Of a DNA stretch of 64,000 bases, positions 9,366 through 61,713 are shown one piece after another. Source of the stretch: Rhytidiadelphus loreus (lineage: Eukaryota > Streptophyta > Bryopsida > Hypnales > Hylocomiaceae); NCBI GenBank assembly GCA_947034895.1, contig OX344762.1, positions 1,366,501 through 1,430,500 of the forward strand. The letters run 5' to 3'. The notes under the pieces were generated by a model that did no database searches, had not been told where the DNA came from, and saw only the letters and a list, made by a program, of their open reading frames with translations. The position numbers and the translations under genes are program-made. Within the stretch, counting starts at the first letter, position 1, and every line of letters starts with the position of its first letter.

Positions 9366-9395
9366 TCTTGGAGGATGATGAGGTGGTCTGGCCTA

Positions 9396-31155: not shown

Positions 31156-34100
31156 TTAGTACTGCTCTTGTGCCAACAAGTTTTCTTCCACCGATAATTC
31201 GATGGCTCCGACTAGATTGGCGGTGGAGCTTCTATCCGGCACTCTTCGTGGAGCTGTAAGTCCGATGGCCTCACCAGTAGTCGTGATGAAGGCATCTGTG
31301 CGGTCGACTACTTCTCGTTTGGAACGAGCTTCATGGTGTAAGACCACTTTCCAGCCAGGTCTGTTCGCCGCATCGGAAAAAAACACCTGTGTGGCTTGAC
31401 TCGGGAAGATGAATGGCTCAGCCATGCGAGGGAGTTTATAGTTGACCAAAAGGAATCCTGCGTCATCACGCACATATGCCGGGTTCCCTCGCGTGTCAAC
31501 TGGTTTCACCCATTCACAACGTAGGAGAACAATGTGTGTATGCAATGCGCCATAATCTAGCTCCAAGATGTCCTTGAGCACGCCGACGTATTGCACAGAA
31601 GACTCACTAGCACTTCCTTCCGGCATTTCGAACATAGACGCCACACCGCTATTGTAGCTTAGAAGTCGGAGGGTTGAGTCATCTTCGATACGGAAGTGGT
31701 TTCCAAATGCTGTGATGCGTGCATATCGAGTTGCTCTCTGTGAAGGTTTTTGGTTCATCAAGAAACGATCCAGCTCTTCATTGTTGCTCCAGTCAGGGTC
31801 AGACTGCAACACACAGTTGTGAATCCACTCTGCTAGGGGTGCTGTTGATGGATTCCGCAGTGACTCTTGCATCCACTTCCTAAAAGAATCCACAACAAAT
31901 ACCAAATGACATTCACGAGGCAGTATAGCCAGAACTATATATAAGACATCGCCCAAAACGCAACTCCAGGACACTTCACTTCAGATGGTGTCCGTCAAAA
32001 CACGACTTCAGTGCTACTTCATTACGTCGCTTACGAGTCGCACAGAAGTAATAAAATCTTTTACGACTGAAATACGACTTCAACGCAACTAGGTCGGACC
32101 CTCCGTAAATCAAACAGCCAGTACGTAGCGGCTCTGTAAGATCGCCTCCAGTATTTGATTGGAGGCATGACACGAAGAAAAAAAAATATTTACCAAGGTC
32201 TGTGGCAAGAACTTACGTATACAAATCCTGCATAACGGAGGCATTTGCCAACACGTACTGATGGGCAATGTCTCGCAGCTCAAGGGTCATAATATATGCC
32301 TTCCCAGCACCTTGAAGGACCTCCTCTGCGTCACCATATTCTTCGTCTTCGTCCCACACTCGTCGTTGCGTGGCTTCAAATTTATGGAGGTACTCAGTAA
32401 TGAAGCCTATGCACTCATCCTTGAGGTAACCCTTGGCCATGCAAGCCTCTGGACGCGCGAAATTGCGCACATGATTCTTTAGTACCTTCATGTACCTTTC
32501 GACGGGGTACATCCACCTCGCACTCACTGGTCCACAAAGGTCTAACTCTTTGGCAAGGTGATAGGGGAGGTGAGTCATTACGTCAAAAAATGACGGTGGA
32601 AATTCTATCTCCAATAAGGCCATGCTTTCCGCCACATCATTTTGTAGGGACGGGAAGTCCGCAGGGTTGTAAACCTTCGTGCATAGGCGACGGAAGACCT
32701 TGCACATGCGCATGATAGCCAAACGTGGCCCGGATTGCATGAGACCTCTAAGCGCCAACGGCATTACCTCCTGCATTAAGACGTGGTAGTCGTGACTCTT
32801 CAGCCCTCCAAAATTCTTCTTCCGAATGCACTTTCCCAAGTCTGATCCATAGCCACTCGGTGTCTTTAGCAACTCCAGGCTTCTTGCAAACTTCTCAAAC
32901 TCATCATCTGTTAGCACATACGACGCTCTGGGCTTGACCATCTTCCCCAGCCTCCGAGGATTAGGAGTCAGCCACAAGTGACGCCGCATGTTCCGCCTTT
33001 GTAAATCACGCCTCACTTTGACGGTGTCTTTTTTCCCAGTTATAGTCTTCAGTAAATTCTTAGCCAAGTTCATTTCGCAATGCATGACGTCTAGTGTATA
33101 CCGGATAACGAGATGCTGTGAGGGAAATAACAACGACAATGGTCAGCGATCGTGAATTCCACGGAGAAGGACATAACACCTTTCTTTAATCTAACAATGC
33201 TTAGTAGTCATCGTACAGATGCTAGGAGAAAGTGTCACTTCTGCATGACTTTCACAGCACTCCTACAAGACTGGGAGATGACTCGGCTACGTTCATACGA
33301 CTAGTAAATGACTTTGTGGCCTACCAAAGGCAGGACTTTTCATATGCGGACGGTGATGCACCCTCTCAGATGGAAAAAAGGGTGAACACAAAATGGCGTA
33401 GGGAAATTCTCTTGAATACCTCACTCAACCAATTTAGAGAGCAATATGGTCTAAGGGTCATTCAAATGCTGTAAGAAATCACGAAGGGCAGGTGCACACT
33501 CTTTATATAGATTACTGGGGTGTACTCACGTACAAAAAAGACCATGTCATTACATATTTAGTTCATTTACCATTTTTGTCTTTTATTTACAGCTTCCTTT
33601 AATGTAACCATCTTCCTTGAGTAATACTTGAAACAAATGCGCAGGAATGTTAAAGGGACAATGCTTAGCAGTTTTCCTACAGTCGCGTAGAAAGTGTAAC
33701 TCCTACGTGACTCTCTCACGACTTCTACAAGACTCAGAAATGACTTCACTTCTCTCATATGATTGGTAAATGACTTAGGGGCCCACAGAAGGCTCACCTT
33801 CCAATACGGCAATCTATACAAAATACTGAGGCGCTTGACACCATGTATTTTGGATGGGTCGCTTGTTACACCATCTCTGTTTCCGTTTGCTTTCCAGGCC
33901 ATGTAGTCTGCTGCATGCTGCATCTGCTCTTCAACTGAAACAGCAGACGGTGGAGGGCGGTCTTCCATCTCACCATTGAAGTGCGATTTCATGTCATGTG
34001 ATCTGTAAGGATGCTCTACTGGCAACCACCGCCTTGTGCCACCATACGTGCATTTTCCAAGCTCAACGGAATGCTCCGCGCCCAAATCTGCACCGCACCA

Positions 34101-35564
34101 TGGACAAGCGGCATAACCTTGATGTGCAAATCCTCCTACTGTTCCGTAACCTGGGAAGTCATGAATAGTCCAAAGGAGCATGGCACGAAGTTGAAATGAC
34201 CTCTGACCCATGTCCTTCGTAATGTTGTATGCAGGAACTCCAGCCCATAATTCCAGGAGCTCGTCCACCAGAGGCTCCAAATACACATCGAACACCTCAG
34301 AAGTCACAGATTCCTTGCCGGGAATTAAAAGTGCTAGTAGAATGAAAAACTTCTTTGTCGTCAACCATGGGGGGAGATTATAGTTCAACAATAGAACAGG
34401 CCATGTGGACCACGAAGTCCTATTCTGCTTGAACGGGTTAACTCCATCAGCTGCTAGCGCAAAGTGAGCATTTCTTGGATCATTACCAAAAGTAGGATCT
34501 ACATTTTCATGAAAATGCTTCCATGCCTTGGAGTCACATGGGTGTCTCACCAGCCCGTCCCCTCCATCTTGGTCACTCCGATTCTCAGCATGCCAAAGCA
34601 TCAGCTTAGAAATTGCTGGACTTCGAAACATTCGCTGAAGTCGTGGTATGATTGGAAAGTGCCTGAGAACCTTCAAGGGGAAGCAACGCCGCTCCTCATC
34701 TCTGTAACGACGTCCATTGCACTTTGGGCACCGGAGAGCATTCTCGTGTTCACCACGGAAGAGCACACATCCCCGCTCGCAAGCATGGATGCTATTGTAA
34801 GTCAAACCCAACTTCGAAGTCAGAGTTTTTGCAGCATGGTATGTCTTCGGCAAAGTGTTCTGCTCTGGGAGAATATGCTGGTGAAGGAGGCCAAAAAGTT
34901 CGTTTGCACAGTTGTTGGTCACCCCATGTACAGTGCAGAGATTCATAATCAACACTGTGGCTGCCAACTTGCTGGAGCGGGCCCTCTCATATAGTAACTG
35001 CATTGACTCCTCTAGAGCTGTGGCATCAAAGCAGCCTTCGTCAATAGGTACGCCCGCGTTCGTTTCACCACAAGCTTGGAGATCGCCAGCTTCGGCATCG
35101 CTAGCTTCTTCCATGATATGGTCATGGATGGAATCCGCTGCTGCAAAAGCATCGGCTACCTCTCGATGCGTCCTCTCTGCTATACCTTCCAGGTCAGGTA
35201 CGGTGTCTGGTTCAGGTACGTCTTGTAAGGCTTGATCAACCATGCCCTGGGTATCTACAGCAGCGTCTACTTCTTCTGGCCCTTGTCCAACTGCTGTCCA
35301 GAAATGCTGGTCCCACTCGTCATTAGAGGAGTCCCTATCGCCTGGTCCTCTCCAAATTCGACAACTTGGATGTCTTCCACTCCTGATCAAATGCTCTCTC
35401 ACATTCCGAAGTAGGATCTTCCTTCGCCCACGACATTCATTGCATGGGCAGTAAATTCTTAGCATATTATAGTGTGTTGCACGTTGGTGCTCACGAATCC
35501 ACAGTCGGTCGTCACGTAGTCGTTGCCTCCGAATATCTGAGAGAGGCAAGCATGCCGGAATCAT
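31156..35564 (-). CDS. CACTA transposase, TNP2 type, three exons, apparently intact
   Basis: This is the catalytic DDE-type enzyme of En/Spm elements. Exons read right to left: 35564-33798, 33115-32217 and 31879-31156. The GT/AG junctions join in phase, giving 1,129 residues with no internal stop. Exon 1 has the N-terminal CPCNECRGR motif, then the core (HAENRSDQDGG, HFALAADGVNPF, WTIHDFPGYGTVGG, CPWCG). The junction LPYWK/HLVIRYTLDVMHCEMN restores the conserved core. Exon 2 carries the DUF4218-type region (GLKSHDYHVLMQ, FPPSFFDVMTHL, RWMYPVERYM). Exon 3 has the DUF4216-type C-terminus (IVLLRCEWVKPVDTRG, PFIFPSQATQVFFSD). Its order and length suit a full TNP2. It is transcribed divergently from the TNP1-like gene. 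This copy could be active. Confidence 0.93.
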
Positions 35565-38500
35565 CGTCTGTGCTTCTGCACTTCATAAGGAAATTAAAGA
35601 TAGTGAGAAGTACGTCGCATCCTCTGCCGAACTTGGCACAGGAGTTCTAAGTTCTCATCACATGAACGCGACTTCAACATGACTCCAACAGACTGCATGA
35701 TGACTTCAATATGACTATGTTATGACTTCAGTATGACTTAGTAAAATAGAGCATGACTTATATACATCTTTCAACGAACTCATAGCAGACTCGAACGTCA
35801 TTTGCGGCTGTTTTCTTTGAGGAAAAGATGACGACTAGCACATGGTTCTCTAATTTCACTTGACTGAACACTCGACCAATGAAAATGAACTAAAAGAAAG
35901 GTATTTATTTCATACGTGCCTAAAACATACAAATGGGAGTAAGTCCTCCACAATGAAGGCACGGATACAATTATTTGGGATTGCCACGCGCTATGCATAC
36001 ATTTGGGGGGCGCATGGGAAAATAAAGGGAATAACGATCCCACGTTTTCTTTTCTTTTTTACTCCTACCTGTGGAGGCACGGAGAAACTATAGTGAAGCT
36101 TACAGGAACCAATCCTTTCGTTTCACGTCCTAGCAAAAAGGATATCCATTCTAACTTGCATGAAACAAGTGGATCTACATAGGCATGTTCAGTTTCTACA
36201 TTTGAACCTACACCCTCCTCCAACTTGGGGGAAAAATGCTCGTTCTCACTTCAACGGGCAGTGCATTTCACCTGTTTACAAATCACAACTCTGGAGGATG
36301 TGCTGCCCTCCATGTGCTTGAATACTTGCCAGTGTAACGAATGTCCTAATTCAACACCGATGAAAACATGTGTAAAGCTATGTTGAACACCTGCCATTCC
36401 TTGACATGTGGATTTAATCACAGAAGTAGGAAGCATGACGGAAGGACTCAGTATAGGAAGGCTATTGTCAATGTCCACCGAGTCAGTGCTTCGTCCAATT
36501 TGTCAATGAAGTGTTTTTGCGTACAGGACCTACTACAATAGCTTCCAAGTTCAACTCTGGTGTTTCCATCCTCTGTCATGGCCTACGAAATAATGGAGTG
36601 GCCTTTAGAACTGTCCTTCACAATTGATTTTTTGTGCAATACACGGCGCGTTCTCCTGAAAATTGTTTGAAAACCACCCATTCAAATGTGGAGAAGTATA
36701 ATTATTGAGAATCAGGCAGACGAGTTTTAAATGCCTTGATATTTCCCATGGTAAGCACTGACGTGCCTACAAAACTGGAGAAGGTGACTACAATGTGACT
36801 GCCAATGGAGTCACGAGAAAGTCAACAAGCACACTTGCAACTACAGAATGACTGCTACTCTCATTGTGGCTAGAAATTTTGTCTTTGGGAAGGAAGATGG
36901 ACTTACCCATTGGGCTGTGCCTTCCAAAGTTGATTCCGAGGCAATGCTTGATTCCCTACCATATTACACGTATGGGTTGTAGTATCTGAGTTGCGGAGAG
37001 CATTCCAGTGGCTACATATGCCATCTTTTACGCATATCACGTTACGCTATGCATGAGCGATGAAGATTATTTCCCTATTATCATTTTCTAGTTGTCCATG
37101 GTCACTCAGTCATGGATGATTAGCAAATAAGGGGCGGCGACAATTTGTATTCCATTTTTTTTGGCTTCACAGTCTCACACCCTGTCATTTTGCTACAATT
37201 ACCCTTCTGTAAATGGGTGCTCCTGACCTTGGACGCGTTATGAGTCATCTAGAAATAGTAATTGTCCTGGAAAGACCACGGCTTCCATCAGATGAGGACT
37301 CAATAGCCCTTACACTTCTTTGGAAAAGACTGTTTGAACAGTGCAGTACATCATCGCCACGGTCGTGCCAACATGAATCCGTGTTCCATTTTGTTTACTC
37401 GCATCTATGACACACCTTCATCCTACCTTTTTCCATCCTCCATATTCAAGTAAGTGTGCATGAGACCTCTGCACATGTATAAGGTTTAAGTCTTTATTTG
37501 AATAAGACCATACTTTATAGTATGCACGTACTTCTGTTCTCAATACTCCATACTCCGTCAATCGGTAAGTTCCCATTCCAACTGTAATGGTATTTTAGCC
37601 TTATAGGAAGGTTTAGGGTGCTCGGAGGATGGATACATTACAAAAGAGAACAGTGGCCTCTGCACCCTAAGGAAGAGGAACAAAAACCTCAACCACACAC
37701 AGATTCAGCATCAACACTAGGACTAACTCCAAGAAGTCATTTTAGAGTAACGGACCTCACAGCATGACAAACAAATAACTGCAGTAAGTTACGTATGAGT
37801 CATCTAGTCTGTTGAATGACTTCAATGTGACTTACGGGTGACTTTTTTCGTATGGGACAGTGACTGAGGGTATACGTGCGTGGACTCATAGCAGTCACAA
37901 CCACGGGGGTCACCGCCAACCGTAACGTGTACATTGAAGTCTATGAAAACAGCTAGGACTCCATCCACAAATCATAATTGTCAATGAATAATTGCACAGG
38001 AGCCACAGTACCGCAAATTAAGGAAGACGAATACTAAATTCGGGGAGTTGTCCGTGTTTAGTCCGAAGGGCCGCCCCACTTCCGCCGCCAAAGTCATGAC
38101 TTTATGATCGACCACCAACCAGATCGTAAACCATGATGACCACTCCCTTGCCCTACAACATTCAAAGTGTGATCCAAAGCACTTACAAATGCGGTGCGCG
38201 TTTGAAAACCTTAGTGCTCCGCGGAGGAGTTGGACTGTGGTGACTTGGTGCTGCGGAGTAGCAAAATTTTTGTACTGCAGTTCGGGTGCACGTCTCCGAT
38301 CGACAGTCACCGCTCGAACCCCGTGGTTGCAAATTCACTGCAGGCTTCGCGAAGAACTTCCGTGCATGAATCATGGAATCGCCGCCAGAGAGCCCGCCTC
38401 ATCCAAAGACCGCTTATGAACTTTTGCGCGACCAGAAGAAGGCGGAGATGTTGTAGGCCCTCGAACCTGTTCTTCGCGCCAGACGGGAGTTGTGAGTTCT

Positions 38501-42600: not shown

Positions 42601-44695
42601 GTTGGATGCCCCAGAGCAAATCGGCTCTCCAACAGAAGTCCCACCGCAACTCAGCTCCCCAATAGAAGTCCAAAAACGAATCGGCTCAGTAGTAGAAATC
42701 CCACCGCGAATCGGGTCCCCAACACAGGCCCCAAAGAAAATTGGCTCCCCCAACAGAAGCCGCGGAGAAAATTGGCTCCCCAACACAAGCCCCGGAGAAA
42801 ATCGGATCCCCAGTACAAGCCCCGGAGACAGGAGAAGCAGCCGCTGACACATCTCAATCGGACGGGGTGGAAGGGAAAACAGCCGCCTCCGACGCTGATG
42901 CGGCCCAGTCCTCCGAGGAGCGCGCACTTGTAGAGGGCGCCGTGGAGGTCAGCCCCAATGAAGGAGGCAAGGGAGTTTTCCAAGATGCCTGCCATGACCA
43001 CGGCACTGCAGCTAATGTCGCAGCAGCGCCGTCAAGGAAGGCTAAGAAAGCTCCCAAGTCTCCCTCTAAGGTTTGTATCTCCCAGCACCGAAGTCCCTGT
43101 GCGTCCGTTCCCGGGGTCCGTTTCCTTACCTTGCAGGAGCTCCTCACTAATAAGCTGGGTGGTAGTAGTTTACATAGTCGTAAGCTCCTTGTGTTCAATG
43201 TTCAAGGAACCCTCCTAGACTGCAGTTTGAGCACTGCTGTAAACCCAAACTGTAGAATCCGACCTAGCTTGAAGACAAAGTCACGTAGAGTAGTGTTTCG
43301 TCCATGGCTGAAGCACTTTTTGGACCGTTGCTTTTCGCACTTCAAAGTTGCATTCTGGTGTAGTAGGAGCGCTCCATACATGGAGGATGTGTTTCCTGAA
43401 ATGTTGACAGGGTTTTACAGTCGTGCACGTGATAGGGATCCACTCTTCTGTTGGTCATGTGCCTCTGATGACGCAAGTGGAGGGGAGCAAAATAAGGGAA
43501 CCTTGGGGCAGAAGAACTTATCCATAGTATACAACCGGTACCCTGAGTTCAATGCAAAGAACACGTTCATCGTAGACAGTAAGGTTTGTAGGGTCGTTGG
43601 CAACGCACAGGAGAATGTCCTCATCACAACTCCTTTTTATGTCAAGTGGTTGCGCACTTTGGCTGACAACAGGGAATACCTGAAGTTCTACTTGTGGCCT
43701 CTGTTGCACGCCTTCTGGAGATGCCCCGACGTCAAAACATTCCGAGCAAAGTATCCGGAAGTTGTAAACGAGTCCAAATCTGAGTGGCTCTTGAACCGCA
43801 TGCGTGGAACTGGATACAATTTCTTGGACATGGTCAGAGGTGAGGGGACTTGCAGACCGGCCGGTTTGAAACACACTGCGCCCCTCACCTTTGTTTGTTT
43901 ATGATTGTTAACTTGCACTTGTTGTCTGTGTAGGGAAGGACGGTGAAGCAGAACACAAGATCCAAGACAACCCCTGCCACGGAGAAGAAACGTGATGCTG
44001 CGACTACTAAGGTGCGAGTTCTGCACACTCATTTCACTTGGTGTGCAGCGTGCCCACCCGTCAGTCATGTTCTTGTCGTGTAGAAGTCGCCTGGAAGTCA
44101 AGTTGCCGCTGTGACTTGTTTGCAACTCGTACTGTAGTGTTAGAGAAGTCGTGAATTTAGCCCATGACTGCTCCATGACTTCAGTACTCTTGAATGTAGA
44201 GGGCCGTGCAGGGGTGTTACGTTAGGATCCGAATGGGTGCCATGACGGATTTACGGGTGACTTCTTTATATTGTTTGTAGTTCTTTACCACATTCTTGTT
44301 TTTTGATTTGAATTCATTCAGCTAGTCATCGAGGCCCAAGTCCGATTGCGGTGCGATGCAATAGTCGCGTAGGAAGTGCCCGTCTAATGTATGCTGACGC
44401 TGTCTCTTGCATGCCACAGGGTTTCAACATTGGCAATGAAGTCTTCCTCATGAATCCACGTTCGGTACGGCAGAAGGTGGCCATTGGAGTGGTTAGCGGC
44501 CTTCCGGAGTCTCATAAGTTTCACGGTAAGGACATTCCAGCATCCTGGTTGAAGGTGGATGTCCGTGAAGCTCTTGCAGTAGGGGTTCACCTCATGTTCC
44601 CTAATGCAACAGCAGACATGGAGTTTGTAGAGGACGCAAAGGGGTCTTCTGCAATGTGGAACCAGAAGTATGTAAAGTTGGCAAGCTTGATTTAG
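39647..44695 (+). pseudogene. TNP1-like second protein of the CACTA element with an embedded HAD/FCP1-like domain; reading frame damaged
   Basis: Probable exons are 39647-39779, 40036-40874, 41027-41110, 41969-43839, 43934-44011 and 44420-44695. The second exon has a Transposase_24-like block (NPFAVRKLREALDNKFEYKG). The last exon matches the TNP1/En/Spm C-terminal domain (VFLMNPRSVRQKVAIGVVSG). Between them lies a proline-rich repeat (IGSPTQAPEKIGSP units, 42600-42840) and, at about 43150-43770, a HAD/FCP1-like domain: LLVFNVQGTLLDC at the motif I position, FRPWLKHFLDRCF, FWCSRSAPYMEDVFP and NTFIVDSK. Family motif I normally carries the catalytic aspartate pair; here it reads N-x-Q, so phosphatase activity is unlikely. 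Damage: an in-frame TAG (40233-40235), one extra C in a C5 run near 42746-42750, and a phase mismatch at the 43839 donor. Confidence 0.7.
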
Positions 44696-47983: not shown

Positions 47984-48156
47984 GGGTGAACAGAGCGGGG
48001 GCAATCTGCTGCACGTTGAGGTTCTGGCTGTTCAAAGCGGCTGCAAATTGATTAATCTATCCAAACTCCACAACCTCTGAACTCTTCTGATAGACATAGT
48101 TGAAGATGGCTTGATATGTAATCTTCTCAACATTGTTCTAAAGGCTGTTGACAGCA
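47984..48156 (-). pseudogene. Downstream fragment of a coiled-coil gene cut off by the Mutator-like insertion
   Basis: Read right to left, the frame continues from the other side of the 12-kb insertion at 60200. It is protein-like (NVEKITYQAIFNYVYQKSSE, then FAAALNSQNLNVQQIAPALF) but has two in-frame TAG codons. It stops at the damaged CACTA-type end near 47983. See the companion fragment at 60200-61713. Confidence 0.55.
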
Positions 48157-48656
48157 ACGGTGCTAGATTGTGAGCCTGCGAGCACGAGCCTACGAGCAGT
48201 GAGCTTGGGTTTTGTGAGCGTGGAATTCAAGAATTAGAAAAATCTTTTAAAGAGACCATTTTCTTCTAAAAAGAGTCAATATTTTTTCAATTTCTAGTGT
48301 TGTGACTATTTTAGGATTTAGGGTGCTTATTACCGTGGACCCATTACCGTGGACTTGATACAAAGTAGTGACGACCACGAACATTTTGCTGGAGACTTAA
48401 AACCATGGTATAGGGTTCAGAATTTTGGAAATACTTTGATTTTCTGTATTTCTGGATATAATAGAGTACACATTTTAAAGACAAAGAACTGAAGTATATT
48501 AAAATTGGAATTGAGACTAAAAATAGTCCGTACTCAGTACATTTGCAAATTACAGTATTTGCCCAAATAACAGGTGATAATTCTGAAGCTATATCTCGAA
48601 ATTTAGTCTACAATCTTCAAATCCGAAATGCCATTCAATAAAGTACTATTGCACTT

Positions 48657-51600
48657 CTAAGCATGTTTACGAGTGTCGCTTGTAACCTTGATGATACCAG
48701 CCCTAATGAGAAGCAATTTGACTTCATTGAAGCTAAAGCTTGGAGAATGGATGAATTTATCATCTATCTGATTCATTTTGCAGAAATAACGAAATAAATA
48801 GTAAAGATGTTTGCAACTCACATATTGGTGTCGGCCACCAATTGCGGAGACGGCCATGTCTACAAAATCAGGACAAGTGCACTCAGAATACATGCCAAGT
48901 GTAATTCGATAAACCTTTTCTGTGGGCTCTGTTCCAGTTTGAAGGGTGATAATGGCTCCAAGTCCGGGCAAGGGGAGCATAGTAACTCCCAAAATCAATC
49001 CTTTGACATTAGCAGCACTCTCCCATTTATTGCGATGCTCTGTAGTTGGAGCATTTGCAATACGTCGAATGGTCTTGTTCTTTCAAGATGTTGGATATGT
49101 GTCCGCATTCACCGGGCTAGCTTCATTGTAAAAGTTTGCCTTGAACACATTAGACATCGTAAACAACCGTCGAGGTGACATAGGTGGCCGCTCTTAGAGT
49201 AGAAAGCCAGCTTCTTGCAATAGTAGGGTTTCGTGACGAGTCAAACTAGTGTCACTGAGCACTAGCCAGACGTCTGGAACTTGGGGCCAATCAATTACCC
49301 AAGGCCTTTTGGAGCCTCTTACACATCGGTCAATGTCATCTACACAGAACCAAAAGTCCGTCATAATCTCCTTGGTTCCACCATATTGTTTTTTGCGACC
49401 ACGGTATGTTGGGGCTGGAGTACCTTTAGATCCCTTTGCAATTTTGGCAGTGCAACGAATGTTTGTCCCTCGCTGTTGGGCGTGACATTTACAACTCGAT
49501 TTATGAGATAATCTTGCAATGTGCTATTGTGATGTGTCACAGTCACTCTCCATCACAGTAGAGACATGAGGTACATGCAACAAGTCAACAACTGGGGCTG
49601 GTTCATTAGAAACCACTGTGGGCGTACATGTAGACCGGATCTGCACTCGTGGTTGAGAGAAGTTGACCTTATCTGGACGATGAGAGTCACCATCTGACCC
49701 AACAGGTAGGTCAAGCTTACGTTTGCTGCTACCAAATACTTCTTCACCTTCCAAATGTGGAATACGTGTTCCAAGATTATCTGGTCCAGGTAGGTCATTC
49801 AGGGCCTCTGCAATCTTCTTTGGATCACCACTTCGTCTAGTGCCTCGTAACTTCAACTCTGATTTGGATGGCCCTGACCTTGATGTTGTACCATTCAAGA
49901 ATGCTCGATAGTTGGTCATTTGCATGAAGGCTCGAATGCAATCATCACAAGTGGCCGCAAACAAATCATTACCGCGATTACCAAATTGCTGCAACCACTT
50001 GTTGTGAACTGTTTCCGATAAGTTACATGATGGCATGTCTGCCATCTCATTGAGACTCAATCCCTACAAGAAAAAAAAATGAGTAGTTAGCTCCTAAATA
50101 AAAACATGCAAAAGTTAAATAATCCTACTACACACTTCATCTTCGTAAACCACTGCAACTTTGAACTATCCAGTAAGAGGTCAAGGTTCCCCTTGGCGCC
50201 GAGAGGTAAGTCCTCCACTCCCTGTAGTCAGCAAAGATCCGTGAGAAGTATATAATAGCCCTTTTTTGGGATGGCAAAAAATTATAATGATATGCAAGTA
50301 GTTCTATAGAAATAAAACTATAAGATACTGAAGGATCTACAAGGAACACATACATAGATAGAGAAAGGATTTCCATTGAAGTACCATTTGCATGAACCCG
50401 CCCCATTGGTGATATCGGAAGTGCCAGAACGCAAGCCACAACTCCAGTTCGCACAAAGATTCTTCTGAGGCTGCTCCAGATGATAGCCACCAAGAGTGGA
50501 TCGCCAAGTATCGTGTCTCAGCTTCCTCCATAGTCTTTGAATCTTTGTACTGCTTGCAAAGACGATTGTGTTGGAATTGCATGTCTGGCTTGATGAGTTT
50601 TTGAGTATGGCGATGCAATGATGTACTCCAATGTAGGAGACACGTACGTTCATGGTTCACCATCTCTATTTTAGAATCCCCTGTACCATAAACAATGCGA
50701 ACTGCATTCCAATTTGCTTGGGCACTATCAGCCATAAAGCCCTTGAAGTTTGTATTTGGCACAGCATTGCGTCTCATGACCTCGTTCAAGCACCTCCACA
50801 TAATAACTTGGACCTCAGTGTCTTCAGATTGCATGTCACAAACGGCAATTGTCATGACCTTCCTGCAACTTGTGTCATAGACGTGGCAAGCCATAGTGGT
50901 CCAATTCTTAACGCGTTTGACATGGTCAAATATAATCCATGCGTTCTCTAAATCTCCACCAGACTGCATTCGTTTCACCAAGTCCACTCCACTACCAGGA
51001 CCTTCCACCAACATCTTAAAAAGGTACACCTTCTCTTTCCCTTGTCCAGGGAAGACACTGTCATGAATGTAGTCGAACTTCAAATTCCGCTTCATATTCA
51101 TAATACTGTCAATAATCCCCCCATTGCCAGTGCTACGGAAAGAAGTAATGATATTACGGATGTTAGGAGAACTTAGCCTTTGGAACTTGTCCATGACATC
51201 CTCTAATAATTTTCCTCGCAACATATCCTTAGGCCCATCACCATTGTGTATCAACTGTCTGTCTAGAAATTGCTTACTAGCTGCTAGGGCAATAGCAGAG
51301 TTAGTGGCAGTAGGTGTTTTTGCAACCTCATTCGCGATAAGACCGGAAATAGTGTCTAAAGACTGTCTACAAACTCCTGTTGCTATAGGATGCTTGTGAT
51401 TCCCTAAATGGATGCATGCTCTAGTCATTAACGCGGTATCGCTGAAAACATAATATATTCTAGCGTCATACAAACTAACACAAGTTGGGGGATGTTTACA
51501 GATCTTGCAAAAAAGACTTGAATCCTTCAGGGGATAAACACCAACTTGGAATGGAGCACTAGTATATCCACACCACTGTGACTCGTTTCTTTTGGAGAAC

Positions 51601-52544
51601 CGCTTCAAATACTGACACTCAGGATTAGTACATACCAGATGTCCCGCACAAGAGGACTTTCTGAACTTTAGCCTCTCTTGGTTGTGGATATTGGATGTCA
51701 TGGTTCGACACCAAGCATGACCATCGTATCGTTTATCCATGCCTTGTAGATTCCCACCGCTACATGATGAAGACGAAACTTGAAGCGCCGGTAATTCGAA
51801 TACTACGTCTCCATCAAAATCTGCTGGAAGATACTGCACTTTGTGGTGGATTACTGAATCGAAGTCTAATGCAGCAACTTCATTCCTAGACCCCGGAACT
51901 GATGCAAGATTCTTTAGGCATCCAACTATGCTAATCGTTCCTATACTATTTGGATACGTTGGGGGGCGAGGATGAATTGGAAGATCAAGATTTCCAGATG
52001 GTGTGTGATACATATCTGAAGACATCTCCTGGACATTGTCAAGATCTTCACTCCAAGACTCGACTTGAAGAGTTGGCTGACTAGGGGACTCTCCTTCAGA
52101 CTCACTCGATATATCTATGATAGGGCCAAGAACTTCTTGTTTCACACGGCAAAGGACTACTGGAGTACATGCAACTGTGACATGGTCTAAATCCTGAGAA
52201 GACCGGATTCCCTGCCGAGGGATTGGCATATCCACTGTAGAGTGGTCGGATTGGCGAGGTAAAATCTCAGTGGAAACACCCATCAGGGGAGTGGACAAGC
52301 CGTAGGCTCTATAGCGGCCTTCACGGAGGTGCTAGACAGAACCAGTCTCATGTTCTAACTTTAAGATGTGGACGTACTCCTTAAGGTGTCCAGAATCGGA
52401 CATGACCTCTTCTTCGACATATATACTAGACTGCATAAAACCGAATCGGACGTACAGAAGGTGCGAAGGCAATGTAGCATACCCATCTACCCCAATAGGA
52501 AGAACAAGTGGAATTTCATGCCCATTTGCTCGAATGGAAGCCAT
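48657..52544 (-). pseudogene. MULE-type transposase with SWIM zinc finger, multi-exon, one in-frame TAG
   Basis: The first large block runs from 52544 (MASIRANGHE) to about 50390. It has a cysteine/histidine region (CAGHLVCTNPEC, CKICKHPPTC, RACIHLGNHKHP) and transposase-like text (AWIIFDHVKRVKNWTTMACH, FKGFMADSAQANWNAVRI, ERTCLLHW). Further exons lie near 50215-50130, 50055-49530 (with NKWLQQFGNRGNDLFAATCD) and 49480-49200 (FWFCVDDIDRCVRGSKRPWV). The last, about 49010-48657, carries a SWIM finger (YSECTCPDF ... SCKHLYYLF), a hallmark of Mutator-like transposases, and ends in TAG. An in-frame TAG at 52332-52334 interrupts the N-terminal region; CAG would restore glutamine. Exact internal splice sites are uncertain. 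Family placement rests on the SWIM finger and general pattern. Confidence 0.75.
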
Positions 52545-53448
52545 GGACACCTTGTTCACTATGTATATCAAGTTCAATACTATGACTATAACTCGTCGAA
52601 CCTATGAGACTGAGAAACAATGAGAGGTGTATTTGTGCAACTTATACGGATCCATTCGACTGGAGAACGGATATAAATTTCAAGGCATGTAGTGTCCACA
52701 AGTAATGACAATGAATGGTTTTCAGTGGCCCCCACAATATTAAATCTAAAACCGTCTTTGCGAGGTAATTTTCAAATGGATTTTGTGAACAAAACATTGT
52801 TCATGCTACGGAAGTCATAAATGGACTTAAAACAAAACACGATCAACTGGCAATGGATTTGAAGAGTCGGATCATATTATGATTGGGTAAATATCACAAA
52901 TTAATTTCGGTCATTTGATGAGTGAGGGTATCCATTAGATCTAATTAATGATTAAAATAATGTATAGTACTCATTTCATTATTAGACTACATGCCATATC
53001 CATAATTATTTGAGAAAATATACGGACAATTCTCCTGTAGGAAGCCAAAAGATACGATATGCAAACAGATTCTGCAGTTAACAAATTTAAGTGGATCCAC
53101 TAGAAAATATACATGTGATGGCATTGGCAGTCGACATTGATTCATCGGGATATATAAGGACCGGAGTAATGGTTTCATTTCAGAGAACTTGCTGACGATG
53201 ATCGGTCAGAAATCAAAAGGCAGGGTTTAGGATGATTTCTGAAGCAATCTTTGATACATAATTGATAACACTTAGTACATTTAGGCATCCTATAAGTGAG
53301 ACCGGTTGTATTCTCTAAAAATATAGTGAATACAGAAGGGGTTGTCCTTTTGAGTTCACATGAACCTCACATTAGAATATACACTCGCAGCACTGCATAC
53401 ATTCAGGTCACGGACGTTACACCGTTTCAGATCTATTAAGTTAGTCTC

Positions 53449-53799
53449 ATGCAGGCTGCAATATGTATAGCCGAGAGTGGATCATGTCATAGTTTTAGGA
53501 AGAGGAGGAAGAGAGGGAAACTGTTGTACTCCTCGCCAAAGGAGTTGAGAAGGTCTAGGAATAGATACAAGCAAATTGTAGTAAGAAGTACGCCTGCACG
53601 AAGTGAATCCGTCTCTCAAAATGTCAATGATCATAATAGTATTGATCAAGAAATGCAAAGAACGGCCGTTAAGTTACCATGTATTCGGATTCCTGAGTTC
53701 AATGTTTGCAAGCTCCAAATGACGTCCATGACCAGTGCAAGTGAGTGTGAGGTAAGATACTTGAACTGCGGTCGGAGTGAAGGTAGTTTCGCAATATAG
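53449..53799 (+). CDS. Small basic open frame in the divergent spacer, doubtful
   Basis: A 116-residue frame with a strongly basic stretch (FRKRRKRGKLLYSSPKELRR) lies between the two divergent genes of the Mutator-like element. No family is recognised. It might be a short exon, a separate small protein or chance. Confidence 0.2.
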   Translation: MQAAICIAESGSCHSFRKRRKRGKLLYSSPKELRRSRNRYKQIVVRSTPARSESVSQNVNDHNSIDQEMQRTAVKLPCIRIPEFNVCKLQMTSMTSASECEVRYLNCGRSEGSFAI

Positions 53800-53984
53800 C
53801 AGTGTACCATATTTATAAAATATTGTTGGATAATAAACTGATAGAAACATTTGTAGAACACTCTGCCGTGCCTTATTTAGCTTTTCATTTCATGTGCTCC
53901 AGAGGATTCTGTAGAGAGCTTGACTGCTGTAAATTATCTACTAAGTGAACTATACATTATATGAATAAATGAATTCTTGGTCCC

Positions 53985-54280
53985 CTCTCTTTCTCATCTT
54001 CCCCCTTCTTGCTTCCCCCTTCCCCCTACCCGATTCCCCCTTCCCCCATCCCCCTTCCCCCATCCCCCTTCCCGCTTCCCCGCCCTGTATGCCTCCCTGC
54101 TTCCCCGTTCTCCGCCCCCTCTACCTCCCTGCTTCCCAGGCGTCCACCTCCTCGTGCTCCTCGCTTCTCTTCCCTCTCTGCCTCCCCTTCCGCCTTCCCC
54201 CTCCCCGATTCTCCGCCCTCTTTGCCTCCCCTTCCGCCTTCCCGCTTCACCTTCCTTCCCCGTTCTTTCTACTGCCTAAA
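53985..54280. promoter_or_regulatory. Long polypyrimidine (C/T) tract upstream of the methyltransferase-like gene
   Basis: About 300 bp are almost pure C and T on the plus strand, in units such as TTCCCCC and CTTCCCCG. The tract ends about 130 bp before the likely ATG at 54410. It may be promoter or 5' leader, and could adopt triplex structures. The proline/serine-rich frames across it are side effects of composition. Confidence 0.6.
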
Positions 54281-54409
54281 CCGAATTGCGATTTCTCTTT
54301 CTTGCATTAGGTTTTGATTGCTGCCACCCGACCTGCAAACCCCCCTCCCTTAGAATACAGAAATTGATTGTAGGTCGTGACGTTGTTCCCTTTCCAGCGG
54401 AAGAAGGCC

Positions 54410-57400
54410 ATGGGGAGAAGGCCAGCTACAAGAAGTGCGGTAGCGGAAGAGCAAGAAAGTGAAGGAGATGGGAGGAGTACTCCGGTCGTTGGTGATGCAA
54501 ATATCAACCTTCAGACCGAACTGGCGAAAACCTCCGTAAGCATTTCGAATCCTCTCTTCTTTAACCATTCAAAATTCTCTTGCGTCTAGGCCGTAGGAGG
54601 GATGCTTTGGGTGTGCATTGAACGTTTGAGGGCTGTCTGACTTAATGTGGGTGGGCTTCGGGGATCCCGTATGGGCCGAGGGCAAGTGAGGATGGGGCGG
54701 GGAGTGAATGTTTGGGGGTTGTCTGTCTGATTGTACGTGGGCTTCAGGGATCCCGTATGGGCCGAGGGGAAGTGAGGACGGGGCGGGGAGTGAACGCTGG
54801 GGGTTGTCTGACTGACTGTGCGTGGGCTTCGGGGATCCCTTATGGGCCGAGGGGAAGTGAAGACGGGGCGGGGAGTGAATGTTCGGGGGCTGTCTGACTG
54901 ATTGTGCGTGGGCTTCGGGGATCCCTTATGGGCCGAGGGGAAGTGAGGATGGGGCGGGGAGTGAACGCTGGGGGTTGTCTGACTGATTGTGCGTGGGCTT
55001 CGGGGATCCCTTATGGGCCGAGGGGAAGTGAGGACGGGGCGGGGAGTGAACGTTGGGGGCTGTCTGACTGACTGTGGGTGGGCTTCGGGGATCCCGTATG
55101 GGCCGAGGGGAAGTGAGGATGGGGCGGGGAGTGAATGTTCGGGGGCTGTCTGTCTGATTGTGCGTGGGCTTCGGGGATCCCGTATGGGCCGAGGGGAAGT
55201 GAGGACGGGGCGGGGAGTGAATGTTCGGGGGCTGTCTGACTGAATGTGGGTGGGACTCGGGGATCTCGTAGGGGCCGAGGGGAAGTAAGGCTGGGATTGG
55301 ATTTAGGTGATAGGGGATGTCTGGGTAGAAAATTCTCTCATATCCTGATGACTGGAATTTAATTCCAATTTCATGCTTGATAATGTTCCAAGAAATTATG
55401 GAGGATACTAACCAACTCCCGCCTCCTGCGAGCCCCAATGTGGATGCCGCTAGGGTGGATTGCGTTGAGGAGGATAACATAACTGATGATGACATGGATA
55501 ATTCTAATCTGGACTTTACGTCCGAGGATGCATTCAGAAGGTCCCAGAAAGTTAACTCTGTTGCCTCTATAGCGTCATTGAGACTAAAACCTCATTCGAT
55601 ATCTCGTTTGAGAATTCCCTTGTGTAGACTTGTCCAGATGCCAATGGTCCGTCCAGCACTTCATTGTAACCTAACCAGACTTGAGCAAGAATTCGTCCAC
55701 GGATACAGAGATGGATCTAGTGTTTTCTACGTGTCTGTCACGAATGAGCAAGGAGAGACGGAGGAGGTTTCTGATACTGACAAGGATTTATGGGGACTTA
55801 TATGGAATGCTGAGAATGATGAATTCAATGCCAACTTACGGGCAACACCCGGCCTGAGCAATTATGAAGGCTCCAAATTTTTCGTTTGCGACGGTAATCA
55901 CAGGCTTCTTGCTTGGTCCTCATACATTTCCAAGCACCATGCTCGTGATAGAGAGTGGCACGTTTCCGTGGATTCCATAATCCTAGAGACCAAGGGCAAA
56001 ATCGGGCAGGTCATGCATGCTATGCATGATATAAACAAGTATGTCTTTCTATCTTGACTTCTTTTTTTGTATATCCTTCATTCACATCACTTGTTGCCTT
56101 CTACTAATCACCTTTTTTTATTCAGGCAAACGGAGAATTCGTTTATTAAGACCAGCCTTGTGCACACGCTTTATCGTGTACAGAAGTACGGTGTCCTCCC
56201 TTTGGACAAGTTTGCCGAGCATTTGAGTGACTCCGAGATGACTCAGTGCCAACAGAATACAAGGAAGAGTTGGTACACAATGTCTCTGGAGGTTTTCACT
56301 TCATTTATTTATCGGGTAATACTCATCTTTCAATCAATGTATGGTGTTTTAGTGTCCCTTCCTTTATTGAAATTACACTACTAATTTCTACGACATTGTG
56401 CAGTACGAGATTGCAGCTGCAACGGATGTGGCAGTCAGGAAATACAAGGAAGTCACTACGGGTGAGGATCAATCCGAAGAAGGAATCCTGGCTGCAATGA
56501 GATTGGGTACTAAAGAGCAAACCACAAAACTGACCCAGAAATTGGGGAAGTTGACAGTTGTCGCAAATCCCAATCTAGGGACGGAGTAGCTGAGAGAGGT
56601 ACGATGATATTATCAAAGCCCTTCTTCATTTCAGTTGGTTCTTCTACTTGATGAATTGTTCTAATATGATTATTATTTTTCTTCTAGATCGAGCGCCATT
56701 GGAGTTCGAATATAACACCAGAAATGACTCTGGACAAGTTACAGATCATAGCCACTTGCAACGTGAAGAGTGAACACAAGGTCAAGTGGTTGCAATGGTG
56801 GAATTCTTCAGTTCAAACACGAGAGGCAAGAAGGTTTCCCCTTAAGCCGGTCGGAGAGAATGAGTTAAAGTCCTTCTTGACTAAGGCTTGTTGGTATATA
56901 GGGGTACGTGTTTCTCACTGTACTCTAATTTCTTTATCTCCTTCTGCTATTTGCTTCAGTGGATGATTTTTGGAAATGTGGAATTGATTGATATTTGAAG
57001 TCCTTGTAATTTACAGATTGAAGATGTTGGGTTAGAAATGTTTGATGATATTGTCAAGAAGGACCAGTTGGCATTGTCTATGGAATCTCCAAAGGAGCCT
57101 GAGAGTTTTGGAGATTACATTGAAGGATGGAGAATTCGAGTTTGGGACAAAGCATTCCTGCACAATTTTAAGGGGCAAGACGTTTTTAGGAAGTCTGATG
57201 ACTTCAAAAAACGCAAGGACAACGATCTAGTTGTAAAACGTGTGCTCTACCGGTATGCTTATTTTCAATTATTTGTAGAACTTCTTCACAATTGTATTTC
57301 ATTTCAAATACAAACTTTATTTTCCTTGAATTGACATAATTTGTTCCTATAGGTACTTCAGATACGAGCTTCTTCCAAAAGGAGCCATTTCGAAGCGAGA

Positions 57401-59698
57401 TCTGCCTCCTTTCCTTGGAACGTGGTTGGATGTCTCGTCCGAGCATTGTATGTTCTCTACCTCACAGCTAAAATGGTGGACGAGTGTGCATCTGAAGTCG
57501 GGCGCTTGGTATTTGGATTGCCCACCGGAGTTCACGCCACCATCAGAGGAGTACCTGAAACAATCTATTCATTCTCATGAGGTGGTAGAAGACATTGACG
57601 AGTTCGCAGGACTTGATGAAGATGCAAAAGTTCGGGCTATGAAGAAGAGAGAGGAAGCTGACAAGAAGATAGCATTGAAGAATGCAGAGGCAGTGGAGAA
57701 GGCGAAGGAGAGGATGGCTAAGAAGGCTTCTAAACTTGCAGAGACTGGAGAGGCGTCTACAGCTAAGCAGACAAAAGGCAAGAAGGGGAAGCAACAAATT
57801 CCGCCCTCTTCCACTAAAGACGAGGGCTCCCAACACCAACAATCTGTTTCACGAGGAACCAAGCGTGATGCTGATTATGTCTCACTAAGTGATGGTGGTA
57901 TGGTGCATGGACCTGGAGCTGTGGGATTTTTAAATGACTCAGAAATTTCCATCAATGAGTTCATTCTCAATTTTTCTCTTACACAGGTGTTGGCTGATCC
58001 ACTACCCCAAGTGTATCACGACATCCTAAACTTTATTGATAAGGTTAGCACTTTCCCTAATCTACTTCAAATTACCTTTATATATACTCTTTTTAAGGTC
58101 ATTTTTTATTTTACTAACATCCGTCCATTTGTTGCAGCATAAAGGGGAGAAGCATCGTTTTTTTAAAGGAGTGAAGAGTGATAAACCGCGCGTTGACCTT
58201 ATTCTTGCTGACATGCCAGAGGGTTTGCCTGTCCCTGATTTGTCGGTGCCTTCCACAAGCATTCCCAAGTGGAACATGGACTCCCCCATTTGGTTGGAGT
58301 CATTGTTTGAGTTTGCTGATGGCCACCTCCATGATGACGGAGGTCTTATCATTATCTATCCCCTAAGAGCTATTACAAAAGCCACTATTCTGAAGTACGG
58401 TACTACATATTCTTTTGAAAAGATGAAGGATTGGTGGAGAATGAACTGGCTACATTTGGCCTCACCGGTTTCACCCTCAAGAACGGTATATTCTTTTTCC
58501 ATTTCCTTATCGACTCCACGCATCTTCTGATGATACTTGTTTAGTTTATTTGAATCCTTGCAACGGTAATGAAATCCGACGTCTGTTCATATATCTCTGG
58601 AATTGTATGCATGCCTCTGTTTTAGTTTTTAGTTTTTTAAATGAAGGTTCTGTATTTTTTTCCAATTTACATAGATCTAATGTCTACATTGTTCTTCATT
58701 GAATTTATTTGTGCAGACCCAACGATTTGGAATTGCTTTGTTGGTGAGGAACTTCCCAGGGGCTGCCCCTTCTAAGTTCAAATTCCAACCATGTCCGACC
58801 TTGAAGAAACTTGGTGTGGATGTAGCACGCGACGATGTACTACAGAATTTTACAAAGGTTGAAACTTTGACTATGGACAACAACTCCAAGCCTTGGAGAG
58901 GGGCGCGAGAAAAGGATCCTCGCTTTCTACAATGTTGATTGAAGCATGCTCATTACCAAATGATGTTGTCTTGGACTGCACTGCTTCTACTGGTAATATG
59001 AGATCCCTTGACTATCTATTTTTTGCTAATCCTTTTACCAATTCTGCTTAGATCCTTTAAGTATTGTTTACTGACTTTGTTGTTGTCATATGGTTGATGC
59101 AATTAGGTGCCTCCATCCACGCTTGCAGGATTCTGAGTAGGCACATCGTTGCACTTGAGGAGGACCAAGCCATCTTCTATGCCATTTTGGCCCCAATGAT
59201 TCGGGTCCATTCAAGTGTTCCCACCTCTACTGCAACGGTGGTATTACATTTTGATGATGAAGATGCATTGGAAGTTGAAGTTCCACACATCGTGAAGAAA
59301 TCCCGATTCAGTAAGTAAGTCTATCCAGAACTAGTTTTTTTTTCTAAGTTTAGTTCTATTTCTGTCCATTTTGTTTAACATTACTTTGTTCATTTGCATA
59401 TCATTTAATTTTTTTTTGGGATTGCAGCATGATTTCTAAAGAGGCCGGTCTTCGTCCTTTCTTCACTCTACCTGGGTTTTTCCCAAGCCCGGAGAAGTCG
59501 TTTGTACTGCCATCCTATGCAGAGGCTTTAGCTTCAACATTTGCATGTCAATCAAATCCGCGTGTGAGGAGAAATTCTAGTGTAGTAGATCCACGCGTCT
59601 TGCAGTTTGTAGATGTGATAGCCTTAGGATCAGACAATGAGACATCATCGTCTGATAGTACTGGTCACTCTGAGTCTATGTCAACATCTTCTACTTGA
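54410..59698 (+). pseudogene. ParB-like / DNA methyltransferase-like fusion gene of the Mutator-like element, 11 exons, damaged
   Basis: Probable exons: 54410-54535, 55329-56038, 56126-56315, 56404-56598, 56688-56903, 57017-57252, 57353-58043, 58138-58485, 58717-58992, 59107-59314 and 59428-59698, about 1,155 residues with in-phase GT/AG borders. Exons 2-3 hold a ParB/Srx-like core (FFVCDGNHRLLAW). Exon 7 has a lysine/glutamate-rich coiled coil. Exons 8-10 follow the order of a permuted (beta-class) N6-adenine/N4-cytosine methyltransferase: VDLILADMPEG at the motif IV position, HDDGGLIIIYPL, RFGIALLVRNF, then VVLDCTASTGASIHACRIL at motif I and IVALEED at the acidic loop. Motif IV reads DMPE rather than D/N/S-PP-Y/F/W, so catalysis is uncertain. 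Damage: in-frame TAG at 56587-56589 and a one-base frameshift around 58896-58930. The start and the exon 2 acceptor are the least certain parts. Confidence 0.72.
54587..55300. repeat. 85-86-bp minisatellite in intron 1 of the methyltransferase-like gene
   Basis: About eight units carry GGGATCCCGTATGGGCCGAG followed by GGAAGTGAGGA and GGGGCGGGGAGTGAA. The marker GGGCCGAG recurs at 54673, 54759, 54844, 54930, 55015, 55100, 55186 and 55272. The array is GC-rich, unlike its surroundings. Confidence 0.93.
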
Positions 59699-60199
59699 TT
59701 TGTTTTGGGGTTGCATTACACTATATGCCTTTCATTTTATCATCTAAAATACAATGTTTTCTAAGCCTTAGTTATCGACATTCTATGTACCCTTCATTAT
59801 TGTATTTGAAGGGTAATCTAGTTCGCAAAATTAGTGGATTTTCGGTCACAATCTTATCTATTATTTTCTAGTGTTACTGAAATGAAAGGTTGTTTTTCTC
59901 ATAAAAAAATTCAGGGATTTAAAAATTCAATGTAAATATGATTTATAATAAACAGAATTTATGACAACAGAATTCAAAATGACTTTCACTAAGCATGCCC
60001 TAAACTCATTAAGAAACACAATTTTCGTGACCATTCCCCTTTCCTGCCTAATATTCTGAGGTCACGTCATTATTCTTAAGTCCACGGTCATGGGTACTTC
60101 ATCAACTTTAAACTCTCAAAAATATATCTTAACATACTCATAGGCTCACACACTCACGCTCGCAGGCTCACGCTCATAGGCTCACAAAATAGCAACCCT

Positions 60200-61713
60200 G
60201 CTGTTGACAGCATGCGCCGTCTCGGTTAAGCTATCCATAGTATGGATGGTATCATTCAACCGATATTTACCTCTGGCCATCAAATCTAGCATGTCTTGCG
60301 TCGCACCTGATGCAGCCTTCTGCTCTGGAGAGAGATTACCGATGATTATTTTCCATTTGACTCCATCTGGTTTCTTAATCCCCAACTTTACCTCAAGTTC
60401 AACTTGCACCTTTTCAATAAGAATCCGGCGCCGTACCACATACTGTCAAGGTTATCCCTGTCACGTCAAGTCCGTCCGTCAGGATGTCTGGACGCACGTT
60501 AGGATTCAACTTGGCGTCCGTCGGAATTAAAAAAAAAAAAAAATCCCTGGACGGTCCATCCATCGACCTAGACGGGTGGTTTGTCGACCTAGACGAGTAG
60601 TCTATCGACTTGGACGGTCAGATTGTCAACCTCGACAATGGATGGATTGGCCGTCCACAAAAAAAAAAATTTTTGACGACCTGTCTGTCGACTGGTTTAC
60701 TCCAAGGTGACAAACTGGCCGTCAAATTTTTTTTTTTTTGGGCTGACAGCAATACTGACGTGTCAAAACATCCGGACGTGAAAAGCCCACGTTACGTTCG
60801 GATAGACAACCCTGCATACTATAGCTGTACATTCTTCAATAACTGGGCAGTATGGGATGTGTTCACCTGAAGGTCAGCCTTAAGCATGGCTATTGTGCTC
60901 AACAGTTTGGAATTGAGCAAATCTTGTTTTGCAACTCTGCTTTCTAAATCTGCAACTCTGCTTTCTAAATCTGCAACTCTGCTTTTAAACTCTGATTCAT
61001 GTACGACAGGCTCATCTCGTAATTGGCGAAGAGATGCTTCCAATACCTTGGACCGCCTCTCAGAAGCCTGCAATATCAAAATTTTCAATTTAAGAGTTAA
61101 GGGCACAAACCTAAAGCCATAAAAATAAACTAAAGAAGAATACAAGCCAGAAATTCAATAGACAATAAACTGTTATTCTTCAATGGGTATATAATCAATT
61201 GTTTAATTACAATTGTTTCCATAATAATTTTAATAGTTATTGTAGGAAGAAATTGACTCTAAGACAAATTGCAAGATTAATATTCGAACCTCGTTATCAA
61301 TGAGTGCTTTAGACATAGACGCCCGGCACGTCTTAAGTTGCTTTTCAAATCCGCGCTTTTCTTCACTGGTCTTCAAACTCACAAGTTACAACTACATAAT
61401 CTGAAACATGACTATAAAAACTGAACAACCCATCAGAGCTAGACTGAGGAATACCCAATCTCATACTATACTGCTCCACAACATGATCAAGAAGGCCTCT
61501 CACACCCGGATTCTCAAGGCTGAATTCGAAGTCACAAGGAATTAGACACGAAATATCCATGGAAACTTCACAATACTGAACAAGAACCGATCTCTGGCTA
61601 GAACTAGGAGGAGGATCAGATGGAGGAGTCTCTAACTCCACCTCCTTCCTCAACATTTCTTGAAAATCCAAATTCATAGAAAACTCAGATAACACTCTTT
61701 CATAGCAAAACAA
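60200..61713 (-). pseudogene. Coiled-coil protein gene of unknown function, broken by two transposon insertions
   Basis: Three blocks read right to left. The first starts near 61677 (MNLDFQEMLRKEVELE) and runs to about 61300, with one frameshift near 61365. The second, about 61069-60823, is a predicted coiled coil whose core is a 21-bp unit repeated about three times (SRVADLE). The third, 60438-60200, contains ILIEKVQVELEVKLGIKKPD and DMLDLMARGKYRLNDTIHTM. The hAT-like MITE at 60447-60814 interrupts the exon between blocks two and three, and the Mutator-like element cuts the end, which continues at 48156-47984. I recognise no family. It was probably a host gene or gene copy. Confidence 0.5.
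60447..60814. mobile_element. hAT-like MITE, 368 bp, inserted in an exon
   Basis: The left end is CAAGGTTATCC and the right end, on the other strand, is CAGGGTTGTC. The flanking 8-bp sequences are CATACTGT (60439-60446) and CATACTAT (60815-60822), one mismatch apart; 8 bp is the hAT target length. The interior repeats GTCGACCTAGACG-type motifs. Removing it joins the two coding blocks in frame. Confidence 0.65.

Follow-up and report, generated by a model that had tools for sequence, protein, structure and literature searches.

Why does a plant DNA transposon carry, beside its transposase, a gene that joins a ParB-like domain to a DNA methyltransferase-like domain? The question is raised by an element of 12,046 bp in the window analysed here, a 64-kb stretch of the moss Rhytidiadelphus loreus (C2:1366501-1430500; coordinates without a contig are those of the window, and genome-wide searches covered the whole 407-Mb assembly, contigs C1, C2 and so on). 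The element belongs to a large two-gene DNA transposon family which has been mobile in the past. The accessory protein encoded by its second gene would carry a ParB/sulfiredoxin-fold domain and a beta-class N6/N4 methyltransferase domain on either side of a middle region. Most likely it recognises its own element at an array of palindromes in the first intron of its gene, as ParB recognises parS, and the likely benefit would be either an element-specific protection from host silencing or some help in pairing and transposition. We consider this joint reading to be evenly balanced between right and wrong, and examine below the evidence that bears on it.

The element and its family

The transposon occupies positions 48155 to 60200 (no strand assigned), starting with CAACGGTGCTAG and closing with CAACCCTG, and both ends are common to four other full-length copies. 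The initial annotation had proposed an element with a target duplication and inverted ends, which the copies bear out, although its limits of 48157..60199 had to be corrected. Seven other copies were fetched. Four of them (one from C1, three from C4) can be aligned with the window copy between 48154/48155 and 60200-60206 at ~94.5-98% identity, one carrying an internal insertion of ~0.6 kb; two further copies (C4 near 245 kb and C5) share the left end only and one (C4 near 50.7 Mb) the right end only. The window copy is flanked by CTGTTGACAG on the left (48145..48154) and on the right (60201..60210; no strand for either), as delimited by copy comparison with one base ambiguous, and the four other full-length copies carry their own flanking duplications, CCCCTATGTC, CAACACTAGT, TTATGGTGG and TTTTTGTACG. 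Direct repeats of 9-10 bp, different at each insertion, are therefore present in 5/5 full-length copies, window included, and since each copy has its own duplication the repeat in the window is not due to chance. Sequence reading and copy comparison place the left terminal inverted repeat, accompanied by GAGC-rich subterminal repeats, at 48155..48197 (plus strand; CAACGGT-GCTAGATTGTGAGCC) and the right one, with 14-bp GCTCACAGGCTCAC repeats, at 60144..60200 (minus strand; CAGGGTTGCTATTTTGTGAGCC as read from the right end). An Rfam search of the window gave no match.

The transposase gene lies on the minus strand and consists of two large open stretches, which measure 754 and 468 amino acids where they are longest among the other copies. 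The first large open frame of the window copy (50337..52331, minus strand) is 664 amino acids long compared to 754 in several other copies, a shortening which had been passed over, and the second large exon (48657..50063, minus strand; 468 amino acids in two other copies) is interrupted. The patterns D...D...CxxH in the first and CxC...CxH (SWIM-like) in the second were read by eye. Mutator-like elements generate target duplications of 8-11 bp, as described in PMC6446971, a range that includes the 9-10 bp found in the five full-length copies. Because this length and the SWIM-like pattern fit, the element is probably Mutator-like as first annotated, but this is not proven: a Pfam search with the 754- and 468-amino-acid frames at E up to 10 retrieved no transposase family, and a weak SWIM match (E 1.8) occurred in one diverged relative. 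Kyakuja-Dileera-Zisupton or another superfamily was also considered, given the zinc-finger pattern. Viral contigs searched with the transposase frame and the ParB exon yielded no relative.

The second gene is on the plus strand. Reading of its splice sites by eye resolves it into ten coding exons between 55398 and 59698, in an order kept in relatives down to ~46-53% identity. They comprise the ParB-like exon (55398..56038), exons 3 and 4 (56126-56315 and 56404-56598), exons 5 and 6 (56688-56903 and 57017-57252, matched in loci L053 and L054), exon 7, a linker with a lysine/glutamate-rich stretch (57353..58043), exon 8 with the methyltransferase motif IV region (DLILADMPEGLPVP, 58138..58485), exon 9 reaching up to motif I (VLDCTASTG, 58717..58992), exon 10 with the end of the S-adenosylmethionine-binding part (GASIHACRILSRHIVALEE, 59107..59314) and exon 11, the C-terminal tail (59428..59698). 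Exons 7 and 11 were delimited by splice reading and relatives, exons 8 and 10 by alignment and profile. An additional 5′ coding exon at 54410..54535 (plus strand) is plausible, its ATG and donor site being read directly; it stands as a candidate with an unsettled junction to the next exon. The initial annotation had counted eleven exons. The frame is continuous except for an in-frame TAG in exon 4 (56587-56589) and a break near 58920 in exon 9, and because of these two lesions we read the window copy as a pseudogene, a state that had also escaped notice. Directly upstream of the candidate first exon, at 53998-54260, lies a pyrimidine-rich tandem CTTCCCC stretch which is present in some other copies.

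The second gene is paired with the transposase and under purifying selection

The ParB exon was scored at no fewer than 150 places in the genome, from 100% to 50% identical and many without a stop, out of 1,389 first-look candidates. Among 67 scored transposase places, 58 have a scored ParB exon within 15 kb where ~0.8 would be expected, and 57 of these pairs are head-to-head; the remaining nine have none among the 150 scored exons, which says little about these nine since both genes may occur at further places. Conversely, a scored transposase is present no more than 15 kb from 57 of the 150 ParB exons. In one copy (L014 and L021, C4:50705400-50724700), which is perhaps nested or rearranged, a second gene close to that of the window has a 67% similar transposase nearby in opposite orientation.

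Inspection of 31 ParB exons, namely L054 and the 30 that scored best, showed 23 to be free of stops. The median ratio of nonsynonymous to synonymous substitution rates (dN/dS) of this exon was 0.275 for the 39 pairs with a dS of 0.1 or less, 0.163 at 0.1-0.3 (27 pairs), 0.109 at 0.3-0.8 (23 pairs) and 0.062 above 0.8 (103 pairs, near saturation), a usable value being absent in 61 of 253 pairs. The methyltransferase exons 8, 9 and 10 gave ratios of 0.137, 0.127 and 0.234 at dS above 0.3. When recent near-identical copies were pooled, the transposase exon had a ratio of 0.36 and the second gene one of 0.49, and the pair formed by the window and the C5 copy reached 1.09 for the transposase, as expected for dying copies. 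The second gene is therefore under purifying selection and kept with the transposase.

These data bear directly on the idea that the second gene is a mere passenger, captured from the host or from a foreign source. Mutator-like elements are prone to acquire gene fragments according to PMC6446971. However, the association with the transposase and the selection across lineages, in a family of this size, rule out this reading for practical purposes, and we consider it barely credible.

The single spliced protein used as query found no relative among 7,993 scored candidates. With alignments of diverged copies as queries, public protein collections returned 615 relatives of the ParB exon at E up to 1, the best 120 of which were listed, and 42 relatives of the methyltransferase part, two of them named and both from the moss Ceratodon purpureus.

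The N-terminal part has a predicted ParB/sulfiredoxin fold

The ParB-like core DGNHRLLAW had been recognised from the first. A structure model of the ParB-like exon, submitted to a fold search, places it in the ParB/sulfiredoxin superfamily: the rows obtained belong to the ParB, sulfiredoxin, SbnI and serine-kinase group, with few outside it. The exon carries VCDGNHRLLAW and a GxxRxxA loop, which is the nucleotide-binding loop of this superfamily. Across 66 ParB-exon sequences DGNH is invariant and the R and A of the loop are present at ≥90%. A PHROG ParB-like partition family matches 21 of the 66 members (best E 0.039), while any other PHROG matches two at most. In the PDB, sequence searches with the ParB part retrieved at most two rows, both unrelated (E 0.54 and 1). 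Weak Pfam matches of the exon (Phage_tube_C 0.0035, dermatopontin 0.0046, DUF4998 0.0059, HRXXH 0.033, RDM1 0.038 and DUF1015 0.061) were taken as chance because they are scattered, each occurring in at most five of the 66 members.

A palindrome array in the first intron

We judge the most informative part of the element to be one that the initial annotation passed over. The intron upstream of the ParB exon contains a tandem array of 7.8 units of 86 bp (54619..55295, plus strand), with eight sites of a core, CCCTCGGSSCCGAGGG, within 3 mismatches (54667, 54753, 54838, 54924, 55009, 55094, 55180 and 55266, plus strand). At least two core sites (≤4 mismatches) are found upstream of the ParB exon in all 30 copies L023-L052, the 30 best of 150; L050 has only two, and L031 has six, a count equalled by at least one of 100 shuffles. 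At the same ≤4 mismatches, four sites precede the ParB exon of L061 and two that of L058, while L059 and L060 have none. Most spacings are near 86, 95, 106, 118 or 128 bp, depending on the lineage, and the lineage cores are self-complementary at 4 to 7 of 8 pairs.

In the window and 19 other loci (154 kb), searched on both strands at ≤3 mismatches, only one site per element copy was observed outside the arrays, located between the two large transposase exons (position 50190 in the window, and present in six of seven left-part loci). Genome-wide, the pattern of two cores 70-100 bp apart has 174 occurrences (73 forward, 101 reverse), a good number of which overlap since the core is nearly palindromic, compared to 0 for a reversed control. 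Among the occurrences listed there are 80 places in 26 clusters on C1-C3, and 16 clusters have a scored ParB exon no more than 3.5 kb away, with a chance of ~0.0026 for each. Eleven of the 13 listed clusters with at least two pairs are near a ParB exon and one is within 6 kb of a family transposase.

Could the array be an ordinary minisatellite, or an intronic regulatory repeat unlinked to the protein, its shared core reflecting common descent? Introns commonly hold minisatellites, the lineages are related, and eight unrelated repeats elsewhere have TCGGCGCCGAGG. On the other hand, identity across ten lineage consensuses is 0.82 in the 16-bp core versus a near-random 0.31 in the flanks, a contrast which is partly circular as the core was picked from the same arrays and the alignment anchored on it, and from which L050, L058, L059 and L060 were left out. 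A less circular search, with a motif derived from lineage E only, was positive in 10 of 13 copies from other lineages, and for each of them 0 of 300 shuffles reached the number of sites; it gave two sites in L050 and four, unevenly spaced, in L061. Moreover, the spacing classes advance in steps of ~10.5 bp, in roughly the same helical phase (R 0.918 with 11 values; when each class contributes a single value, R 0.94 and simulated p 0.0024), where the lineages are related, classes and test were chosen post hoc, and single spacings and those above 140 bp were dropped. We regard the minisatellite explanation as rather unlikely, but serious.

Several points weigh against recognition of the array by the accessory protein. 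The core/flank contrast has the omissions and the circularity just given. The 1.4 kb preceding the ParB exons of L059 and L060, which are ~50-55% identical, showed no such array, and L058, whose exon has a similar identity, has only a weakly similar one of 150 bp, in which an inverted repeat loosely resembling the core (CTCTCG...CGAGAG) was recognised by eye; the lineage-E motif has no site in these three most diverged copies. The core of the window lineage is the poorest palindrome, with 4 of 8 self-complementary pairs. One array with at least two pairs, at C2:64088053, is unexplained, and eight of the 26 listed clusters are an unrelated AT-rich repeat, single-pair and with no scored ParB exon near. 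As for the protein, Foldseek with the model of the ParB part gave no match at E 0.001 or better, and none of the 66 members matched a Pfam ParB family at E up to 1. Finally, ParB binds parS through a helix-turn-helix, and no search for one was made here.

The AT-rich repeats, assigned to this type by eye and showing TCGGCGCCGAGG on both sides, are located at C1:1385805, C1:57309959, C1:84014747, C1:92057791, C2:15885198, C2:17016871, C2:53839148 and C2:61928827.

ParB proteins also bridge and cluster DNA. The protein could thus be a transposition cofactor, bridging the ends or sister copies to help the transposase, with a methyltransferase domain acting only as a DNA-binding module. The head-to-head pairing with the transposase fits this, as does the presence of second genes in several Mutator-like groups (PMC6446971). 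The array, however, lies in the middle of the element, away from the ends, and the extra core-like site at 50190 is likewise internal; we hold a purely cofactor role to be unlikely. On the main reading, in which the accessory protein recognises the array, this site may be the start from which it spreads as a nucleotide-dependent clamp.

The methyltransferase domain has an altered motif IV

The C-terminal part is homologous to beta-class N6/N4 DNA methyltransferases (PF01555), as judged by a profile match over the whole domain to CcrM, a match to DpnA and the permuted motif order, IV before I. The circular permutation first annotated is thereby confirmed. The window's own sequence taken alone scored 22.1 bits, under the Pfam cut-off of 26.7 bits. 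Whole-genome searches with PF01555 and PF02195 gave no match on C1-C5 and matched only on contigs numbered C62 to C426; the family therefore falls under Pfam sensitivity exon by exon. The matching contigs (C62, C174, C199, C234, C245, C293, C295, C308, C309, C318 and C426) carry bacterial-type N6_N4_Mtase or ParB_N frames and are probably assembly contamination.

The motif I region for S-adenosylmethionine binding is conserved among aligned members, and the domain probably still binds this cofactor. Canonical motif IV reads (D/N/S)PP(Y/F/W), and its aromatic residue is needed for catalysis. Here it is D-x-P/S-E, with E at the aromatic position, in all six members of one alignment (A1); in a larger one (A5, 23 of the 42 relatives of the methyltransferase part), the 19 rows covering this position have E in 18 and K in one. 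Two further relatives read DVLE and NLPK, and Y, F or W occurs in none. Among remoter relatives (P0035 and P0037-P0042), several have DLTVGT at motif I and one has GRHFLGFEED after it.

Since motif IV is changed throughout the sequences examined, ordinary N6/N4 methylation by this domain is doubtful, and so is the marking of DNA by methylation suggested at the outset. The alternative would be an active methyltransferase that places N6-methyladenine or N4-methylcytosine on the element's own DNA, a role already proposed for the algal relatives. The full-domain CcrM match, the DpnA match, the conserved motif I and the purifying selection on exons 8-10 speak in its favour, and the same proposal is in print for Ectocarpus Sola1-1 (PMC12477816). 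With the catalytic aromatic residue replaced, we have downgraded this explanation and think it improbable. A further possibility is a complete system of the parS-ParB type, in which a nucleotide-dependent clamp would load at helically phased 16-bp palindromes in its own intron and spread along the element, a repurposed methyltransferase domain would shield that element from host silencing, and clamp and array would co-evolve, each lineage recognising only itself; we propose this fuller scheme only tentatively.

Relation to known systems

The closest counterpart is the brown-alga transposon Sola1-1_Ec32, for which PMC12477816 describes a ParB-plus-N4/N6-methyltransferase accessory gene opposite the transposase and cites similar proteins encoded by transposons of green and red algae. 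Self-binding and self-modification were suggested there as functions of the accessory protein. As compared by description, both elements encode the two domains in one protein of ~1,100 amino acids, opposite the transposase of a DNA transposon. In contrast to the Sola superfamily, the moss element has 9-10 bp duplications, is probably Mutator-like and resides in a plant, and the available part of PMC12477816 describes neither an array nor a motif IV change for Sola. The fusion itself is thus already known; what is added here is its plant, probably Mutator-like setting, together with the altered motif IV and an array of the parS type. A search of the open-access literature, a weak test with subscription literature mostly outside its scope, retrieved no Mutator-like or land-plant ParB-methyltransferase element, nor a palindrome array in one. 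In the available text of an N6-methyladenine survey (PMC12695648), the words moss, Physcomitrium, Marchantia and land plants were searched for and do not occur.

A second parallel is VANC of the Arabidopsis VANDAL elements, which are counted among Mutator-like groups (PMC6446971). As reported in PMC5735166, VANC binds motif arrays of its own family, introns included, and reduces DNA methylation. Both cases involve an accessory protein of a (probable) Mutator-like element and motif arrays which are often tandem, partly intronic and strongly variable between relatives; by description, however, the VANC21 motif is YAGTATTAY whereas a 16-bp palindrome is found here. The moss element could share the logic of VANC, with a ParB fold and a palindrome, and counteraction of silencing by its protein would then be the parallel benefit. 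TET/JBP genes of fungal DNA transposons (PMC12730594) resemble it as DNA-modification genes carried by several DNA transposon groups, but act by methylcytosine oxidation and belong to an unrelated protein family.

Unlike bacterial and plasmid ParB, Noc and KorB, the moss gene is eukaryotic, intron-bearing and fused to a methyltransferase domain, and no ParA partner was noticed. It shares with CcrM, DpnA and MboIIA the order of motifs, and differs from them, beyond motif IV, by a DCTASTG-like motif I in place of the DPFxGSG type.

If the protein binds the array, a ParB-parS-like system would exist in a eukaryote. Transposon self-recognition would then have a second solution, apparently unrelated to that of VANC, and a prokaryotic DNA-methyltransferase fold would seem to have been kept for a role other than base methylation. 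The array provides a directly testable target motif, and the lineages a natural series of matched proteins and arrays.

Other features of the window

Outside the element, the window contains a piggyBac-type transposase frame (8139-9392, minus strand; DDE_Tnp_1_7, E 1e-65) and a CACTA-type transposon (31156-35582, minus strand) with Transposase_21 (E 4e-65), weak Transpos_assoc and DUF4216. A plant receptor-kinase type gene at 15686-16926 (plus strand) has a malectin-like domain (15686-16336) and continues in the next frame. A NIF-type phosphatase at 42696-43904 (plus strand) is preceded by degenerate IGSP-rich peptide repeats. Lastly, an IFT122-like TPR frame (508-1125, plus strand; E 1e-17, under the Pfam cut-off) fits a plant with flagellate sperm.
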